28,459 nt of DNA from a virus, in the IMG/VR virus record IMGVR_UViG_3300032326_000319, positions 1 through 28,459 of that record; one strand, 5' to 3'. This document shows, piece by piece, positions 6,378 to 28,459 of this stretch. Below the pieces are notes generated by a model. It saw only the letters and a list, made by a program, of their open reading frames with translations. It searched no databases and was not told the origin of the DNA. Positions within the stretch are counted from its first letter, which is position 1, and every line of letters begins with the position of its first letter. The position numbers were made by a program, and so were the translations under genes.

Positions 6378-9300
6378 TTATACTAATCTATTTACTGCTA
6401 CTAAATTAACTGATGATGTATCAAATGATATGAGTGTTAGTATATCTCTACTTCCACTCGCAGATGCTACATAGAATGAACCTGTTGGTTGTCTAACATT
6501 AGAACTAAATGATGCAGTTGATGCAGTATTAGTATTTACCAAAATGTTAGATACTTCGCCAGGTTTTATATTTGTTATGTTAAAGAAAGTTGTTGCACTT
6601 GCTCCTAATGTTACGGTGTGGAAATCTCCAGCGTTTAAGTCCACAGATGCAGTATTAGAAGATACTGTAATAGATACCACATTACCTTGTGCCGAACCAG
6701 TCACTGTTAGGGAACCAGTTATGATAGCTGAACCAGTAAATGGAAACGATGCTCCACTTACACCGCTAGTTCCTGAAGTTCCATTTACACCACTAGTTCC
6801 AGTAAGTCCTGAAGTACCTGAAGTACCATTTACTCCATTTATTCCACTCGTACCATTAACTCCGTTGATGCCTGATGTACCATTTACTCCAGATGTACCA
6901 GCTGCTCCATTTACTCCACTTGTTCCGTTGATACCACTAGTACCATTTACACCACTAGTACCACTTGTTCCAGCGGTTATATTGGATGCGGATACAATGT
7001 AAAGTGTATTATCATCAATCAAACTTGCAGTTACTAATCCTGCATAAGATGCTGATGTTAAGGTTACGATATGTTCTACTCTAGGTACAGAGAATGTATC
7101 TGTAATGTTATCTATAAGACTTCCACTAAATGAACCTGATCTCAAACTGATTGAACCAGTCACTCCAAATGAACCAGTCACTTGCGCAGAACCAGTGTAT
7201 GGGAATGCTAATGCGGTTTGACCAGATGTACCTGATGTACCAGTAACACCGGAAGTACCTGAAGTACCATTAACCCCATTCACACCACTAGTACCATTGA
7301 TACCGCTAGTTCCGTTAACACCGGAAGTTCCATTTGCTCCATTTACTCCGCTTGTACCATTAACACCTGAAGTTCCATTGACTCCACTAGTACCATCCGC
7401 TCCATTTACGCCTGATGTACCATTTATACCACTTGTTCCAAAAGTTCCATTAACTCCACTTGTTCCATTTACACCCGAAGTACCATTTACTCCAGAAGTT
7501 CCAGAACTTCCATTTACACCACTCGTACCATTTACACCACTCGTACCATCAATACCACTAGTTCCGTTGATGCCAGAGGTTCCAGATGAACCAGCAACAC
7601 CATTCACTCCAGATGTTCCACTTACACCACTAGTTCCAGAAGAACCATTAGCTCCGTTTACTCCACTCGTTCCATTAACACCAGAAGTACCAGAAGTACC
7701 TGATGGAGTTTGTGCAATTATTAGTAATATATTTTCTCCACCTGTAAAACTAAAAGAACTTGTTACAAAAGTTGCTGGAAACTCCCAATATGAGTTAGGT
7801 CCAACTTCATTACCAGTACCAAATGTCCATTTTTGGAATTGGTCTGAATTGTTTTGGTCTTGTATGATTATAGTAGAGCCTGATGGTATCAATCCTAAAA
7901 ACAAATCTACATCATCACCACTTCTATCTAAATGTGATACATTTATTTGTGTTGCGCTTTGTTGTGTTGCATTATTCCAAATTATATTAGCATTGCCAGG
8001 ATTACCAGAAGTAATATTTGTTCTTGCATTGTATGGGAAGAATGTATTAGATTGTCCATCTGCCCCATTCACACCACTTGTACCACTTACACCAGATGTG
8101 CCAGAAGTTCCACTTATACCACTAGTTCCGTTTATACCTGAAGTACCATTGATACCTGAAGTACCATTTACCCCAGAAGTACCACTTACTCCACTACTAC
8201 CAGAAGAACCAGCTGCACCATTCACACCCGATGTTCCGTTAACACCTGATGTTCCATTTACACCACTAGTTCCACTTACACCAGATGTTCCATTAGAACC
8301 AGCTGATGCAACCAATGACCAGAACATAGTTTGTGTTGCTGGATTTTGGTTTGTATTACTTCCAGCTATAGATATGTATGAACTACCATTAAATAATACT
8401 ACATCATTTACACTATATGTTGTTCCACTATTCCAAGCTCCTCTCCAAGTAAATGATGTACCAGAACTTCCGTTAACACCACTTGTACCATTTACGCCAG
8501 ATGTTCCACTTACTCCACTTGTTCCAGAAGAACCATTAGCTCCACTTGTACCAGAGGAACCATTTACTCCACTAGTTCCGTTTACACCCGAAGTTCCGTT
8601 TACACCACTTGTACCATTACTTCCTGCCTCTGCTACCAATGCCCATTTCGCAGGGTCTACATCTGGAGTGTTATTTTGATTATTTGTGATTAAAGATATA
8701 TAAGAACTACCATTGTATTCTACTACATCATTTATAGTATATACTACAGGTGTTCCTATCCATGTACCTTGCCATGTGAAGGAAGTACCTGATGTTCCAC
8801 TCACTCCAGAAGTTCCATTAACACCGCTAGTTCCGCTTACACCACTTGTACCAGCAGAACCATTTGTACCACTTACACCTGAAGTTCCAGATGTACCCGA
8901 AGTACCATTACTGAATGTAGTACCATTTACAGTAATTGAACCAGTAATTGCCAAAGAACCAGTTATTGTTTGCCCTCCAACAAATACATTAGAACCCGTA
9001 GTTGCATACGAACCTGTCTTTGCTTGCAAACTGTTAATTTCCGCATCCGCAGATGCAGTAAATGCGTTTAATGCAGATATATCTGTTTGAGTTGCATTTA
9101 CTCTAATAGTTGCAGTTCCATTGGATACAGATGCAGTTATTGTAGAACCTACAAAATCAAAAGTACCTGCTACTCCTAATAAAGCACCTTCTTCTTCTAC
9201 AATAACACCACCTGATACTACTAGTGTATTAACTTGATTTTGTAAAGATGCTAGACTCCCACTCACAGATGCACTATCTGCGTTGTAAGTAATCTCATCA

Positions 9301-9425
9301 ACCAAACTATCAATCATATTACGATTGAATGTTCTTAATTTATCAGGTGTAATAAATCCCGTATTATTGTTTGGAAAACTGGCGTTGTTTTCGCTTATTA
9401 ACTGGTTTTTTGTTATTTCAGCCAT
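6378..9425 (-). CDS. Collagen-like tail fibre with two CBM5/12-like modules
   Basis: This 1015-residue fibre has an N-terminal, virion-attaching region (about 1-168; TPDKLRTFNRNMIDSL near residue 30). The rest is built of five Gly-X-Y blocks made of GTS, GVN, GVS and GIN triplets, around residues 174-212, 264-320, 372-455, 572-733 and 820-890. Two similar modules of about 50 residues (near 212-262 and 320-372) carry the W...Y..(N)DVV.(Y/F)NGSSYIS...W.LVA pattern of chitin-binding CBM5/12 domains. Globular inserts lie at about 455-572 and 735-820, and there is a non-repetitive C-terminal domain (890-1015). Gly-X-Y blocks should form trimeric collagen-like rods that carry sugar-binding modules to the cell surface. 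It is the longest gene here and leads the adhesin group. Confidence 0.85.
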   Translation of the reverse strand: MAEITKNQLISENNASFPNNNTGFITPDKLRTFNRNMIDSLVDEITYNADSASVSGSLASLQNQVNTLVVSGGVIVEEEGALLGVAGTFDFVGSTITASVSNGTATIRVNATQTDISALNAFTASADAEINSLQAKTGSYATTGSNVFVGGQTITGSLAITGSITVNGTTFSNGTSGTSGTSGVSGTNGSAGTSGVSGTSGVNGTSGVSGTSGTSFTWQGTWIGTPVVYTINDVVEYNGSSYISLITNNQNNTPDVDPAKWALVAEAGSNGTSGVNGTSGVNGTSGVNGSSGTSGANGSSGTSGVSGTSGVNGTSGVNGSSGTSFTWRGAWNSGTTYSVNDVVLFNGSSYISIAGSNTNQNPATQTMFWSLVASAGSNGTSGVSGTSGVNGTSGVNGTSGVNGAAGSSGSSGVSGTSGVNGTSGINGTSGINGTSGISGTSGTSGVSGTSGVNGADGQSNTFFPYNARTNITSGNPGNANIIWNNATQQSATQINVSHLDRSGDDVDLFLGLIPSGSTIIIQDQNNSDQFQKWTFGTGNEVGPNSYWEFPATFVTSSFSFTGGENILLIIAQTPSGTSGTSGVNGTSGVNGANGSSGTSGVSGTSGVNGVAGSSGTSGINGTSGIDGTSGVNGTSGVNGSSGTSGVNGTSGVNGTSGVNGTFGTSGINGTSGVNGADGTSGVNGTSGVNGTSGVNGANGTSGVNGTSGINGTSGVNGVNGTSGTSGVTGTSGTSGQTALAFPYTGSAQVTGSFGVTGSISLRSGSFSGSLIDNITDTFSVPRVEHIVTLTSASYAGLVTASLIDDNTLYIVSASNITAGTSGTSGVNGTSGINGTSGVNGAAGTSGVNGTSGINGVNGTSGINGVNGTSGTSGLTGTSGVNGTSGTSGVSGASFPFTGSAIITGSLTVTGSAQGNVVSITVSSNTASVDLNAGDFHTVTLGASATTFFNITNIKPGEVSNILVNTNTASTASFSSNVRQPTGSFYVASASGSRDILTLISFDTSSVNLVAVNRLV
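6760..8920 (-). repeat. Collagen-like Gly-X-Y coding repeats
   Basis: Five blocks of short tandem repeats encode GTSGVN/GTSGVS/GTSGIN units, interrupted by non-repetitive modules. Codon choice varies between copies, so the DNA repeat is imperfect although the protein repeat is strict. Only a few units depart from the pattern, for example one GTF. The complementary strand of these repeats creates long false proline-rich open frames. Confidence 0.85.
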
Positions 9426-9454: not shown

Positions 9455-9686
9455 TATCTCCAATATCAAATCCATTAGAAAAGCCTGATGAGAATGCTCC
9501 CTGTACTATAGGTGCAGATTGTGTTTGACCTATACTTTGATTTTGTAAATATCCTTTACAACATTTAACATCGTAAGTATTACTATCCAAACAAATACAT
9601 CCTCTTCTACTATTTTTAGGTGAAGATTTCCCCCACGTAGGACCTATGAATATACCATAAGGTGGCTGTTTCTTTGTGTATGACAT
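9450..9686 (-). CDS. Small Cys-rich protein linked to tail fibres
   Basis: The product is 78 residues. The core RRGCICLDSNTYDVKCCKG..QNQSIGQ has a C-x-C-x8-C-C pattern followed by a Gln/Ile-Gly segment. I recognise this arrangement as a small protein commonly next to collagen-like fibre genes in Bacteroidetes phages, where its role is not known. The cysteines could bind a metal or form disulfides on the virion. It sits directly before the 1015-residue fibre gene and has its own leader with a TTGTTATAT word 22 nt upstream. Confidence 0.6.
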   Translation of the reverse strand: MSYTKKQPPYGIFIGPTWGKSSPKNSRRGCICLDSNTYDVKCCKGYLQNQSIGQTQSAPIVQGAFSSGFSNGFDIGDI

Positions 9687-9741: not shown

Positions 9742-10014
9742 CTATTTCATGCTCTTTAACATCTCTTTATGCATCAACTCTTCTAAAAATGCCTTATCAC
9801 TTCTGTAAGATAATAAGAGTAAGCATTTTTCCAATGGTTGACGGACTACATCATCTATTTTTAAGATATCATCACCCGCTAATTGAACTATTGTGGAGTA
9901 AGGACCCCACTTCTTTCCAAAATTGATTTGATGCTGGGTGGTACTTCCTCCATTCCCATCAAATAGTTCATTGTATCTTTCAGCAAGTCCGTTAACAAAT
10001 TGCGTAAAAAAAAA
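9742..10014 (-). CDS. -1 frame extension of the tail assembly chaperone-like protein
   Basis: Reading the run of ten T in the -1 frame gives an open frame that continues 144 nt past the zero-frame stop and ends at TAG (9742-9744). The added sequence (88 residues after the slip) includes NFGKKWGPYSTIVQLAGDDI and LEKCLLLLSYRSDKAFLEEL. These look like genuine coding, with the W-G-x-Y/F...L/I..L..(G/N)DI.K pattern I know from C-termini of tail-chaperone-like proteins in this phage group. The full fusion would be 255 residues. It fills what would otherwise be an empty 200-nt gap before the next gene. It may arise by programmed -1 frameshifting, by polymerase slippage, or reflect a one-base error in the homopolymer. 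Confidence 0.75.
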   Translation of the reverse strand, partial: FFFTQFVNGLAERYNELFDGNGGSTTQHQINFGKKWGPYSTIVQLAGDDILKIDDVVRQPLEKCLLLLSYRSDKAFLEELMHKEMLKSMK

Positions 10015-10508
10015 AGTGCACCAAAGTGAATATCCATCCCTAATGAAAGGAATGGTGTTCCATCAATCTTACCATCGTATTCTTTAATATCGTATAACTT
10101 ACCAGTCTTTATAATAACAGGTCTGTATAGTATAGACATTATCTCTGCCCACTTATCATTTATAGTGAGTTCATTATACTTCGTAATATCTATGTACGAA
10201 CCATAACTCATATTAGATAGGTTAGGCTCAAATCCATATTCTACTCCATCTATTTTTATAATCTGTTGTAATGGTTGCTCTGTATTTGATAAGAATGTGG
10301 ATAAGTCCTTTTTAATCTTTACATAAGTTTCTATATCCAATTTGGCAATCCATTCTACGGGCATCTTACATAATCTATGAAACATAACTGCTGTCATTGC
10401 TTCATCACTATCTTCGTATGCTTTCAGGTCTTTAGATAATTCCAAATAATCTTTTAGTGTAACTGCTGACCAACTTTTCGGCACTACTATCTCTACTTCC
10501 TTTTTCAT
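9888..10508 (-). CDS. Tail assembly chaperone-like protein, zero-frame product
   Basis: The zero-frame product is 206 residues. It has a helical N-terminus (VPKSWSAVTLKDYLELSKDL), a conserved-looking centre (YGFEPNLSNMSYGSYIDITKYN), and a segment MSILYRPVIIKTGKLYDIKEYDG followed by GALFFLRNLL at the T10 run. This arrangement resembles a protein family that usually precedes the tape measure gene in Bacteroidetes siphophages and probably acts as a tail assembly chaperone. After the T10 run the zero frame yields only 39 more residues, while the -1 frame yields 88. Two products with different C-termini would match the gpG/gpGT strategy of other siphophages. Here the gene is far from its tape measure (19614-21944) and lies next to the terminase. 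Confidence 0.65.
   Translation of the reverse strand: MKKEVEIVVPKSWSAVTLKDYLELSKDLKAYEDSDEAMTAVMFHRLCKMPVEWIAKLDIETYVKIKKDLSTFLSNTEQPLQQIIKIDGVEYGFEPNLSNMSYGSYIDITKYNELTINDKWAEIMSILYRPVIIKTGKLYDIKEYDGKIDGTPFLSLGMDIHFGALFFLRNLLTDLLKDTMNYLMGMEEVPPSIKSILERSGVLTPQ
10006..10015 (-). other. T10 slippery site
   Basis: Ten consecutive T on the coding strand contain, in the zero frame, a T TTT TTT heptamer that fits the X XXY YYZ rule for -1 frameshifting. The -1 frame downstream is open and gives a better-looking C-terminus than the zero frame. Homopolymers of this length are also prone to polymerase slippage and to sequencing error. Confidence 0.75.
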
Positions 10509-10750: not shown

Positions 10751-11911
10751 TTATTTAACTGATATAATGTATTTTCCCTTTGATGTTGCAACATTACTTA
10801 ATCTTGCCATAGCACCATACCTCATTGCATCCATTAAGTGATCATTAAATGCATTAGGTCTATCTAATTGTTTTCCAAACCTGTCCGTTTCCCATTCGTA
10901 TCCATACGCTTCATTTAGGAGATTAGGACATTGTTTAGGGATTTTTAATTTATAATTCTGTAAGACCTGTATACCAAAGTTTATACTATCTTTACCTTTT
11001 ACTACTGGTTTTACATTATACCCCATTCGTTTTAGTTCTTCTATTAGTCTAGGTTCAGCACTATCCGCCCATATCTCTTCTCTACCTTCTACTAATTCTT
11101 TTAATTTGTTTGCTATATCACTAGTCACCATTCCTTTTTCGTAGCAGTGTTCTACTACATAGATTTCGTTATCCAGTTTCCATAAACTTACTATAGCAGT
11201 TGGGTCTAAACTATAACCAAAGTCCATAGCATAACATACAAACTCTGCGGTATTTGGTATTCCCTCCACTACCTCAAACTCATATATTGCTTTATCATTC
11301 GCAACAAACTCTCCTAATCCATATATTCTCCATGCTTTAGGATTACTCTTTTCCAATGCTTTAATTGCATTTATTATCTCTTTAGAAAGATATGGGTTAT
11401 CCCTAAATGTAGTGAAGTATCTGTGACAATCATCCATCATCCTTAACCAATGGAATGGTGATACAGTTGGGTTGTATGCCAATATGATAGGACCTGATGT
11501 TCGTATCATTAGTTGGAAGTAACTTTCTTCATCTAATTCATTTGACTCATCAATAAAAAGTATATCACTCTTTAGACCTCTCAACTTTTGTGGGTCATCA
11601 GTTGATATAAATTGTATCTCTGCATCATTATAGAATGTATATACTCTATCTGTAATGTTATAACAATCATCTTCCCATATACCCAATCCATTCATTATGT
11701 CCTTAAAGTCTTTAATGACTGTCCGTTTTAATGATGGTATAGTTCTTCTTACTATAGTAGCAGTTTGTTTATTTTGTAATAACTGAACTATAATCCATTG
11801 TAGTATTGCGTAACTCTTGCCACTCCTTGTGCCGCCCACATGATGAGTTACCCTTTTAGGTGAGTTCTGTTGGTTTTGGTAAGTTATAGTTGTCTCTATA
11901 TTAAGCTCCAT
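10751..11911 (-). CDS. terL: Terminase large subunit
   Basis: This 386-residue packaging motor has both expected domains. The ATPase shows Walker A GGTRSGKS (26-33), Walker B ILFIDE (117-122) and the coupling motif LAYNPT (144-149). The nuclease has the acidic residues of an RNase H fold: D230 in CYAMDFGYSLDPTA, D283 in WADSAEP, and D357/D361 in NDHLMDAMRYG. This is the PBSX/Terminase_3 type, slightly short for the family (about 400-450 residues). It pumps DNA into the prohead and cuts concatemers. The start overlaps the end of the small subunit by 11 nt, as in a coupled terS-terL pair. No portal gene follows, which is unusual. Confidence 0.95.
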   Translation of the reverse strand: MELNIETTITYQNQQNSPKRVTHHVGGTRSGKSYAILQWIIVQLLQNKQTATIVRRTIPSLKRTVIKDFKDIMNGLGIWEDDCYNITDRVYTFYNDAEIQFISTDDPQKLRGLKSDILFIDESNELDEESYFQLMIRTSGPIILAYNPTVSPFHWLRMMDDCHRYFTTFRDNPYLSKEIINAIKALEKSNPKAWRIYGLGEFVANDKAIYEFEVVEGIPNTAEFVCYAMDFGYSLDPTAIVSLWKLDNEIYVVEHCYEKGMVTSDIANKLKELVEGREEIWADSAEPRLIEELKRMGYNVKPVVKGKDSINFGIQVLQNYKLKIPKQCPNLLNEAYGYEWETDRFGKQLDRPNAFNDHLMDAMRYGAMARLSNVATSKGKYIISVK

Positions 11912-17013: not shown

Positions 17014-17238
17014 ATGAAAAACAAAAACAAAATTATTGGAGAAGTTAAAAGTGCATTACCATCTGTAGTAAAGTTTATGCAAACTTATGGATTTAAGGAC
17101 TTTGATTATGGGTTTTTATATGGTGCTAATGAATGGGAATGTTCTTTTTTTAAGAACGAAGATGATGCAGAACCATCTGTTTATTTTAATACTCAAACAT
17201 TAGATGAATTGATATATCAGTTAGAGAACTATGGATAA
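17014..17238 (+). CDS. Small acidic protein, unknown
   Basis: The product is 74 residues. It begins with a Lys-rich stretch (MKNKNKIIGEVKSALPSVVK) and continues with an aromatic, acidic part (GFKDFDYGFLYGANEWECSF, then DDAEPSVYFNTQTLDELIYQL). It is preceded by its own promoter-like site and overlaps the GIY-YIG gene by 8 nt. I do not recognise the family. Confidence 0.6.
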   Translation: MKNKNKIIGEVKSALPSVVKFMQTYGFKDFDYGFLYGANEWECSFFKNEDDAEPSVYFNTQTLDELIYQLENYG

Positions 17239-17839
17239 GATATATTACATTTACCACATTCCAACTTTCATTCATAAAAACGGAAGGATTGGAAAGATTG
17301 GATGCTCGGAGGAACACGAAGCAAGAGTAAATAAACAAGGTTATACTCATTACGAAATCCTTGAAACTCATACTGATATTATGATTGCTTCTGCAAGAGA
17401 AATTGAATTACAGAAAGAGTATGGGTATCCTGTTGATTGTATACCTTACTACAAAAGTAGAAGTAAATGGGGAAGTGTTGCAGGTAAAGTTGGTGGTAAA
17501 ATATCAGGTAAAAAGTTTGCTGAAAATGGCCATATGAAACGAATGGCTAAATTAGCTGGAAAAAAAAATGCTGAAAGTGGTTGGGCTTATACTATGGGAA
17601 AGATACAAGGTAAAAAAAATATAAAAAGTGGTCATTTAGATAAAATACGAAAAGCTGCAAATGATGTTCTTAAAAAACCTATTTTGGGATTTACAAAAGA
17701 AGGTAAGTTTATTAAAGAATGGGAAAGTGGATCTTCTGCTGGGAGAGAATTAAATATTGATGTAGCTTCTATAAGTAAATGTTGTAAAGGTAAAATAAAA
17801 TCAGCAGGTGGATATGTTTGGAAATACAAAGAGGAGTAA
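17231..17839 (+). CDS. GIY-YIG homing endonuclease with NUMOD motifs
   Basis: The 202-residue protein has an N-terminal GIY-YIG nuclease: the tyrosine strand IYYIYHI (4-10), GRIGKIGCSEEHEARVNKQG with R32, and the acidic helix AREIELQKEYG (55-65) holding the metal-binding Glu. The middle contains several NUMOD3-like Gly-Lys repeats (for example GKVGGKISGKKF). The C-terminus is a NUMOD1 DNA-binding motif (GSSAGRELNIDVASISKCCK and GGYVWKY). This is the modular form of free-standing Seg-type phage homing endonucleases. It lies on the opposite strand to the structural genes, between terminators, and overlaps the 74-residue gene. It is probably a mobile insertion. Confidence 0.92.
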   Translation: MDKIYYIYHIPTFIHKNGRIGKIGCSEEHEARVNKQGYTHYEILETHTDIMIASAREIELQKEYGYPVDCIPYYKSRSKWGSVAGKVGGKISGKKFAENGHMKRMAKLAGKKNAESGWAYTMGKIQGKKNIKSGHLDKIRKAANDVLKKPILGFTKEGKFIKEWESGSSAGRELNIDVASISKCCKGKIKSAGGYVWKYKEE

Positions 17840-18259: not shown

Positions 18260-19588
18260 TTATAACAATTCTCTAATGATTTTGATATGATTATCCATAT
18301 AAGATATATCGTGCTTCATACCTGTCCTCTCATCTACAGTTTGGATAATATCCTTAAACATATCTACTAACACAATTGCTCTTTCTAATTCTTGTGGAGT
18401 ACTCTTACCTTTCTCAATTACATCTGCTTCAATCTTAAATACATTATCAGCAAATACAGCAGCTGCTCTAATCATATCAACTAAATCATCATCTACGATA
18501 TTCATTTCGTTTACCAAATGATTAAATGTTCCAACAGCACCTGGACAGATATAGAAGTATTCGGTTTGGTATCCGTAAATATTCATTTCAGGTACTTCTG
18601 CTAATAGTGCAGGAGATATACTACCACTTGCTACTTCACCTGGATATGTAGATGTAATAGATGGTTGTGCTTCACCTTCTTCTAATAATCCTAATTCATT
18701 TAATTTATTTCTACTCCAACTAAGAGCGGATTTACCACCCCATAGTAGATAAGATATTGTACCACATGCTTCGGTATCATTCTCATCGTAATATACCTCT
18801 GCTCTACTCAAATAAGAGTACATGCGTTTGATAGTTTCAACTGAAATCGGTTCACCATTTGCTAACTGCTGTGCACGAACTTTGCCTGTTTGGGTTGCAC
18901 ACTTATTACCAACCTTTTCGTTTAACTCAATACCTCTCTTTGCGTTATTCTGTATCTCTGTTCCGTAATCTGCATAACTCTCAAATAATACAGATATTTT
19001 TGATAATAGTAATTCAGCTTCTTCTTCTGTTAGTTCATCTACAGATTTTGATAATAAATCAGTTTGTTTAGATGCAGATACTAACTTATGCTCAAAGAGA
19101 CCTTCAATAGAAAATCCTTTTACTTTACCAGTCTTTACATAATCTCTCCATATCTCATCACTATCGATCTTCATTATACCCATCCAAGTACCAATTGGTA
19201 GATTTAGATTATAAAGTGCTGATTTATCTTTTGTTCTACTTTCTACAATCCAACTTTCAACGAGAGTAACTCCGTTTATTTTTTTATCATGCTCTAAAGT
19301 AGAAGATGCTTGATATCCTCTTTTTAAGTAATTCTCTGCTAACTTCTGTATAGTATTTTTACTAAAGAATACAGTATATGGTACACCATCACCATCCATA
19401 CGGAATATGTGTTTATCCGGTATAAGGATAGGTCCAATTACCAATCTCTTTTCATCATCTATAGAAGAAAAATGTACCTCTTCTTTATTGAAGTATAAAA
19501 ACTCTCTTTCAATGGCAGGATTTTCTACCAAAGATATTGCAAATACCTCATCTGTATTCTCGTCTTCTATTACTAATTCGTATATCAT
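18260..19588 (-). CDS. XkdF-like prohead protease with C-terminal extension
   Basis: The first 170 or so residues match the XkdF type of phage maturation protease: LVENPAIEREF (20-30), GPILIPDKHIFR (52-63), STLEHD with H100, ESWIVE (111-116), GTWMGIMKI (133-141) and VKGFSIEGLF with S160, giving candidate catalytic His and Ser. Next is a conserved phage segment (KRGIELNEKVGNKCATQTGK, YLSRAEVYYDENDTEACGTI, SYLLWGGKSAL; about 217-288). The remaining part (305-442) contains a stretch at 308-331 that resembles the N-terminal arm of the capsid protein, then YFYICPGAVGTFNHLVNEM and helices. It should cleave scaffold and capsid during head maturation. It lies directly after the tape measure gene rather than beside the capsid gene. 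Confidence 0.8.
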   Translation of the reverse strand: MIYELVIEDENTDEVFAISLVENPAIEREFLYFNKEEVHFSSIDDEKRLVIGPILIPDKHIFRMDGDGVPYTVFFSKNTIQKLAENYLKRGYQASSTLEHDKKINGVTLVESWIVESRTKDKSALYNLNLPIGTWMGIMKIDSDEIWRDYVKTGKVKGFSIEGLFEHKLVSASKQTDLLSKSVDELTEEEAELLLSKISVLFESYADYGTEIQNNAKRGIELNEKVGNKCATQTGKVRAQQLANGEPISVETIKRMYSYLSRAEVYYDENDTEACGTISYLLWGGKSALSWSRNKLNELGLLEEGEAQPSITSTYPGEVASGSISPALLAEVPEMNIYGYQTEYFYICPGAVGTFNHLVNEMNIVDDDLVDMIRAAAVFADNVFKIEADVIEKGKSTPQELERAIVLVDMFKDIIQTVDERTGMKHDISYMDNHIKIIRELL

Positions 19589-27413: not shown

Positions 27414-27860
27414 CTATGTTTTTGATAATCCACCAAATATTGGATTAAGTATCTTTACATATTTCTGTACTTGTTCTGCAGCCTGTGCATCTAAAAATTG
27501 TTTTATAACATCTTTTACTTCCTGTTGTTGAGCACCTATTCTAGCGAACGGTCTTTCACCCATTTTAGATGTACCATTATGTACATACTCACCATACTTT
27601 GCTCCATCAGGTGCAATATCTAAAACGAACTCATACCTAAAGTAATTGTTGGATACTATCTTAGTTGCTAATATAGCTGCATCCGCATTCTTTCTAACAA
27701 ATTGTGAAAGTAGATTACCAGTCTTAAATGCGGTAGATTGCTTGAAGTTTTTTATAGTTCTTCTACCCTTAAACTTTGCAAGTGGTGAGTCTAAACCAGG
27801 ATATATTGCCTGTGCTGATTTCTTTTTCCAAGTTCTTGCTACATCTTCTAAAGTTGCCAT
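27414..27860 (-). CDS. HK97 gp10-like head-tail/tail completion protein (putative)
   Basis: The product is 148 residues. The C-terminal half contains YGEYVHNGTSKMGERPFARI, the Y-x-x-(Y/F)-V-(E/H)-x-G-T-x-(K/x)-M-x-x-(R)-P-F pattern of the HK97 gp10 family. These proteins act at the head-tail interface or the tail terminus. The N-terminal part is helical and basic (VARTWKKKSAQAIYP, KFKGRRTIKNFKQ). It follows a 38-residue membrane peptide gene by one nucleotide. Confidence 0.75.
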   Translation of the reverse strand: MATLEDVARTWKKKSAQAIYPGLDSPLAKFKGRRTIKNFKQSTAFKTGNLLSQFVRKNADAAILATKIVSNNYFRYEFVLDIAPDGAKYGEYVHNGTSKMGERPFARIGAQQQEVKDVIKQFLDAQAAEQVQKYVKILNPIFGGLSKT

Positions 27861-27978: not shown

Positions 27979-28459
27979 TTAACAATTGTTTACATCGTTC
28001 TGGTCAAATAGGTTGAATATACACTTATTTCTATCGTTATGAGTTGTTAAATCAAATCCTGCAACCCAACCAGCTAATCCATTATCAAAGTTATCTACAA
28101 ATGCTTCACACACAATATCACTATCTATATCGAAGTTAGTAACACCATCTGCTGTAAAAGAAAGAATATCGTTTATAATAGCTAATGTATTTGCGTGTAT
28201 ATCTACCATATCATCAGTACCTAAGTACTTAGTTTTCATAGTATTACGTTCACCAAAAGATGCATTCTCTTTATCCTTTGGTTTATCAGCAATTAGTAAT
28301 TGACAAGAATAGATTGAAGTACTACCTACAAATCTAACTCTATCCACCATTATATTTGCAATTGGATAAGCAGGATATTGTAAAGTATCAACTTGCCACA
28401 TATCACCTTGTGTTACATGACCTATTGATGGATGATTGTTTAGTACAGTCCTAAAATAA
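27979..28459 (-). CDS. Conserved neck/tail protein, 5' end outside the window
   Basis: The frame stays open upstream of the ATG at 28401 to the edge of the window (YFRTVLNNHPSIGHVTQGD), so the true start lies beyond position 28459 and the ATG is internal. At least 159 residues are visible. They include MWQVDTLQYPAYPIANIMVD, CQLLIADKPKDKENASFGER and TLAIINDILSF. The order before an HK97 gp10-like gene fits a head-tail connector or tail-completion protein. The family pattern is familiar from Bacteroidetes phages but its function is inferred. Confidence 0.65.
   Translation of the reverse strand, partial: YFRTVLNNHPSIGHVTQGDMWQVDTLQYPAYPIANIMVDRVRFVGSTSIYSCQLLIADKPKDKENASFGERNTMKTKYLGTDDMVDIHANTLAIINDILSFTADGVTNFDIDSDIVCEAFVDNFDNGLAGWVAGFDLTTHNDRNKCIFNLFDQNDVNNC

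Follow-up and report, generated by a model that had tools for sequence, protein, structure and literature searches.

A gene on the minus strand of the virus record IMGVR_UViG_3300032326_000319 (IMG/VR) raises the question of whether its stop codon is the true end of its protein, or whether a run of ten Ts ahead of that stop leads to a second, longer product in the -1 frame and, if so, by which machinery. The window, the whole stretch of DNA analysed here, comprises 28,459 nt of that record, and the host of the virus is a bacterium of the Flavobacteriia type. Frameshifted tail chaperones are textbook knowledge and polymerase slippage at nine Ts is likewise known in bacteria; a literature search outside which most subscription journals lay brought up no phage tail chaperone described as arising by transcriptional slippage.

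The zero-frame open reading frame (9888..10508, minus strand) encodes 206 residues, probably the short form ('G') of a tail assembly chaperone. The T10 run (10006..10015, minus strand) begins at codon position 2 in the context GCA CTT TTT TTT TTA CGC; the candidate slippage site reads CTT TTT TTT TTA in the zero frame, and past it the zero-frame tail amounts to 39 residues. The -1 frame stays open from the run to a stop ending at 9742 and would add 88 residues beyond ...ALFF (9742..10014, minus strand), a putative 'T'-like domain completing a fusion of 255 residues. The stretch 9888..10005 (minus strand) would then be read in both frames, as the zero-frame tail and as the first part of the extension, and the predicted peptide at the fusion junction, ...ALFFFTQFVNGLAER, spans ...ALFFFTQF.... 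If the extension were left unread, about 200 nt would stand without a gene, because the next gene begins only at 9686. The first-pass annotation, which had proposed both products, had these coordinates and lengths right. The T10 is the sole homopolymer of at least ten in the whole window. Separately, the plus-strand ORF at 17231-17839, which matches an HNH endonuclease, contains a run of nine As (17560-17568), a sufficient length for polymerase slippage.

Comparison of the number of Ts across related phages, suggested together with the first proposal, gave a uniform answer: T9 or T10 stands at the junction in 222 of 222 homologous genes, in five codon registers, and runs of eight or fewer or of eleven or more are absent from these 222 genes, which include near-duplicates and form 69 clusters whose extensions share less than 75% identity with one another. 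The run is exactly T10 and keeps its phase in each of twelve relatives of the 206-residue protein at 55-65% identity, with a similar -1 extension intact after it, and in one relative (L008) the run is shifted by nine nucleotides and is T10 all the same. The layout, a T run followed by an open -1 frame, is conserved in all near relatives found. A wider search with N-terminal patterns lying clear of the run yielded 70 distinct genes, of which 58 have T10 in register 1 and 2 have it in register 2, the other 10 having T9 in register 0. Searches starting from gp38 of Nonlabens phage P12024S, with one of six peptide patterns crossing the run, returned members that all have T9 except for one T10, while the extension motif alone recovered 75 distinct genes, 52 with T9 and 23 with T10 without exception, none of them a continuous-frame fusion. 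A first scan of genome contigs gave no matches, nor did tblastn of the extension alone against cultured phages. The cultured phages P12024S and P12024L have T9, and T9 or T10 is present in five bacterial-assembly loci labelled Winogradskyella, Flavobacterium, Flavobacteriaceae, Bacteroidetes and Galbibacter; the Galbibacter pacificus prophage locus has T9 and sits on a contig of 871 kb from a deeply sequenced isolate, the assembly being labelled 413x. Across 130 dereplicated loci (437 kb of coding DNA), coding runs of at least nine Ts occur 129 times at the junction site and 3 times elsewhere. The layout is concordant in relatives, isolates included, and therefore reflects neither chance nor assembly error; these comparisons indicate that the frame change is programmed.

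As to the machinery, it seems likely from the sequence comparisons that the frame change would come about by programmed slippage of RNA polymerase, giving the two products in a programmed ratio. A faithful transcript (U10) would yield the 206-residue protein; where the polymerase adds one U on the T10—or, more rarely, drops two—normal translation would continue in the -1 frame and yield the 255-residue fusion, since one inserted U leads to exactly that frame. Bacterial RNA polymerase slips efficiently in vivo at nine A/T, for example at the T9 of Thermus dnaX (PMC5009743), and transcriptional errors in A/T runs are mostly single-nucleotide insertions that rise exponentially with run length (PMC5574713). 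The window gene can be likened to Thermus thermophilus dnaX, in which nine Ts give two products of one gene through extra nucleotides in the mRNA; dnaX, however, encodes a cellular DNA polymerase subunit and its slippage has been demonstrated experimentally, whereas the window gene is a probable phage structural gene for which we infer it.

The first-pass annotation had instead proposed a shift by the ribosome. Classical programmed -1 ribosomal frameshifting at T_TTT_TTT (or T_TTT_TTA), like that of lambda G/GT, we consider possible but rather unlikely. Tail assembly chaperones are the classic users of this route (PMC5009743), and the canonical heptamer, of the X_XXY_YYZ type, is indeed intact and in phase in every member, so that ribosomal -1 slippage is possible at each site and would suffice. 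Seven Ts would be enough for it, yet runs of seven or eight are absent from the 69 clusters, as are T_TTT_TTC, A_AAA_AAG and other heptamers. The Ts before and after the in-phase T_TTT_TTT number (1,1), (1,2), (2,0), (2,1) or (0,3), a total of 2 or 3 in each case, and the flanks thus compensate in a way that keeps at least nine Ts, which speaks against a ribosomal origin. This compensation was reached in 0.0001 of trials in a permutation over the 69 clusters, a figure that overstates independence, the 222 genes being relatives of one another. Dual coding to either side of the run could itself hold the flanking Ts in place, and in T9 register-1 genes (NTT TTT TTT TAY) coding alone supplies them, so the argument from synonymous freedom against ribosomal slippage is weak in those genes. 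No 3' RNA structure was detected in 55 genes (mean z 0.0 in 60 nt windows and -0.06 in 100 nt windows); such structure is a common stimulator of ribosomal frameshifting, not an obligatory one, and lambda-type sites may also be without strong 3' stimulators (PMC5009743). Candidate 3' pseudoknots or stem-loops and upstream nascent hairpins did not exceed control regions and were rejected, as was selection for an early +1-frame stop after the run (median 4 codons versus 5 in controls, no difference).

Polymerase slippage is favoured because a floor of nine Ts with compensating flanks is kept where seven would do, because runs of at least nine Ts are almost absent elsewhere in coding DNA, because downstream RNA structure is absent, and because slippage in vivo is efficient at nine A/T, with single insertions dominating. 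A homopolymer of at least nine A/T is conserved at the frame junction irrespective of codon register, as expected of programmed transcriptional slippage. Of the original proposal, the two products, the C-terminal domain, the intact heptamer and the tail-chaperone-like gene hold up; the ribosomal route is not established, since the strict nine to ten Ts in five registers, the compensating flanks and the missing 3' structure fit polymerase slippage better. On balance, we lean towards the view that throughout a large clade of Flavobacteriia phages the ratio of two chaperones is set by host RNA-polymerase slippage at nine to ten Ts and not by ribosomal frameshifting.

The -1 frame evolves as a protein. 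The substitution maximum falls on zero-frame position 3 upstream of the run and on -1-frame position 3 downstream of it. Read in the -1 frame, four-fold third positions change at a rate of 0.354 in the overlap, against 0.537 past the zero-frame stop and 0.497 upstream; this lower rate implies some constraint on the zero-frame tail too. The third-position pattern and the homologues uphold the first-pass claim of a C-terminal domain, which proves real and conserved, and the -1 frame is protein-coding.

Public annotation presents the matter otherwise. The direct homologues in the Nonlabens phages P12024S and P12024L, gp38+gp39 and gp40+gp41 (PHROG 32199, 38404), have T9 at the same site; there the -1 extension is the downstream gene, the two parts are annotated as unrelated hypothetical proteins with the frameshift unmarked, and the second gene is annotated from an internal ATG in both phages. 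P12024S gp38/gp39 (L094 6001-6695) and P12024L gp40/gp41 (L243 2947-3641) are in each case the halves of one frameshifted gene. Were the downstream domain instead a separate gene with an internal start and no fusion, as these two records have it for P12024S gp39 and its P12024L counterpart, usable start codons should precede it; yet ATG, GTG and TTG are all absent from the first 38 extension codons in 55 of 69 clusters. The window extension has none ahead of codon 58, which leaves its conserved motif without a usable start codon before it; conservation of the extension begins right at the run, and continuous-frame homologues are fused. A separate gene is thus very improbable, and was rejected for want of start codons ahead of the motif.

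Distant homologues (Duneviridae, Helgolandviridae, Microcystis-phage) of 259-301 aa are encoded in one frame. With hhalign, the window-family fusion aligns end to end with the continuous-frame homologue (98.6%, 230 columns), the extension part being collinear, though weaker, and the two halves are therefore, on independent evidence, one protein. The extension, for which a profile search had been suggested, has no Pfam match. The Duneviridae family PHROG 25418 (Flavobacterium phages FPSV-F7 and laban; Cellulophaga phage Ingeline) is collinear with the whole 255-residue fusion and, unlike the window gene, lies in one continuous frame with no short form predicted. In Flavobacterium phage 6H (L245, NC_021867; 10352-10927), gp10 is annotated with 191 aa and followed by an empty 305-nt gap, where the near-identical phage FPSV-F7 has one uninterrupted frame of 293 aa. 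Locally, just ahead of its early stop, the 6H record deviates, in what appears to be either an error in the sequence or a genuine break. An assembly or sequencing error in the window—a true T11 encoding only the 255-residue protein, which the first-pass annotation had tied to relatives with that protein in one frame—could appeal to these distant homologues, but only far Duneviridae relatives are so built, both frames are under constraint in the overlap, and the frame break is common to 222 of 222 near relatives, among them the isolates P12024S/L and the Galbibacter prophage, so that with more than 200 concordant relatives this explanation is rejected as barely conceivable.

What, then, is the protein? 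It is probably a tail assembly chaperone of the G/GT type, and the first-pass term 'tail chaperone-like' is plausible, profile hits and fold matches being suggestive though short of the family thresholds. The PF10109 (Phage_TAC_7) profile gives the window protein 18.7 bits, below the Pfam cut-off of 25, and matches 10 of 20 members (best 8e-5). The tail protein phrog_166 matches 15 of 41 members weakly and the tail assembly chaperone phrog_3140 matches one; ten further proteins gave no match to a chaperone-family profile. AF2 models the 206-residue short form with a pLDDT of 86.5 and the extension as all-helical with a pLDDT of 77.9. In BFVD the short-form model matches two proteins that bear the name tail assembly chaperone, with E values of 0.01 and 0.76, the other hits being mostly unnamed phage proteins, and neither domain has a significant fold match in the PDB. 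The G/GT hallmark is present, in that a short product and a -1-frame C-terminal extension are both conserved. Lambda gpG/gpGT (also P2 E/E+E', Mu gp41-type and PF10109) similarly pairs a short protein with a -1-frame extended fusion, and in these systems, as here, the slippery site lies towards the end of the short ORF and the extension has about 90 aa. By analogy, abundant short chaperones would coat the tape-measure protein and the scarcer long form would recruit the tail-tube protein via its extra domain. Unlike such chaperones, which have a variable heptamer, the window gene has an invariant T9/T10 homopolymer and adjoins the terminase large subunit gene.

The terminase gene (TerL; 10751..11911, minus strand) is the upstream neighbour, and P12024S/L and the Galbibacter prophage likewise have a terminase gene upstream. 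The position expected of G/GT, after the tube gene and just upstream of the tape-measure gene, is not found in the window, where the gene follows TerL and lies downstream of a tape-measure gene about 9 kb away. In the Galbibacter prophage the homologue stands between TerL and head-tail/tail genes, and the next genes resemble, by eye, window ORFs 27979-28401 and 27414-27860, the latter with a tail completion/neck1 match. Elsewhere in the window, 6378-9425 encodes a 1015-residue fibre protein with collagen-like repeats of the GTSGVNGTSG type, opposite which a 460-residue ORF is probably spurious. A 442-residue protein (18260-19588) has an N-terminal XkdF-like head maturation protease (Peptidase_S78_2) domain, and its other ~260 residues match only phrog_2859 (function unknown), at about residues 226-293.

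For the annotation of phages, two 'hypothetical' families, PHROG 32199 and 38404, are joined into one protein, and a T9 or T10 run after TerL offers a simple rule for many uncultured phages. Deriving both chaperone lengths from a single gene is widespread among long-tailed phages, and the documented route is ribosomal frameshifting. If polymerase slippage does the same work here, the ratio of the two products would matter more than the means of their production, and a different route may be preferred in hosts where Shine-Dalgarno signals are seldom used.
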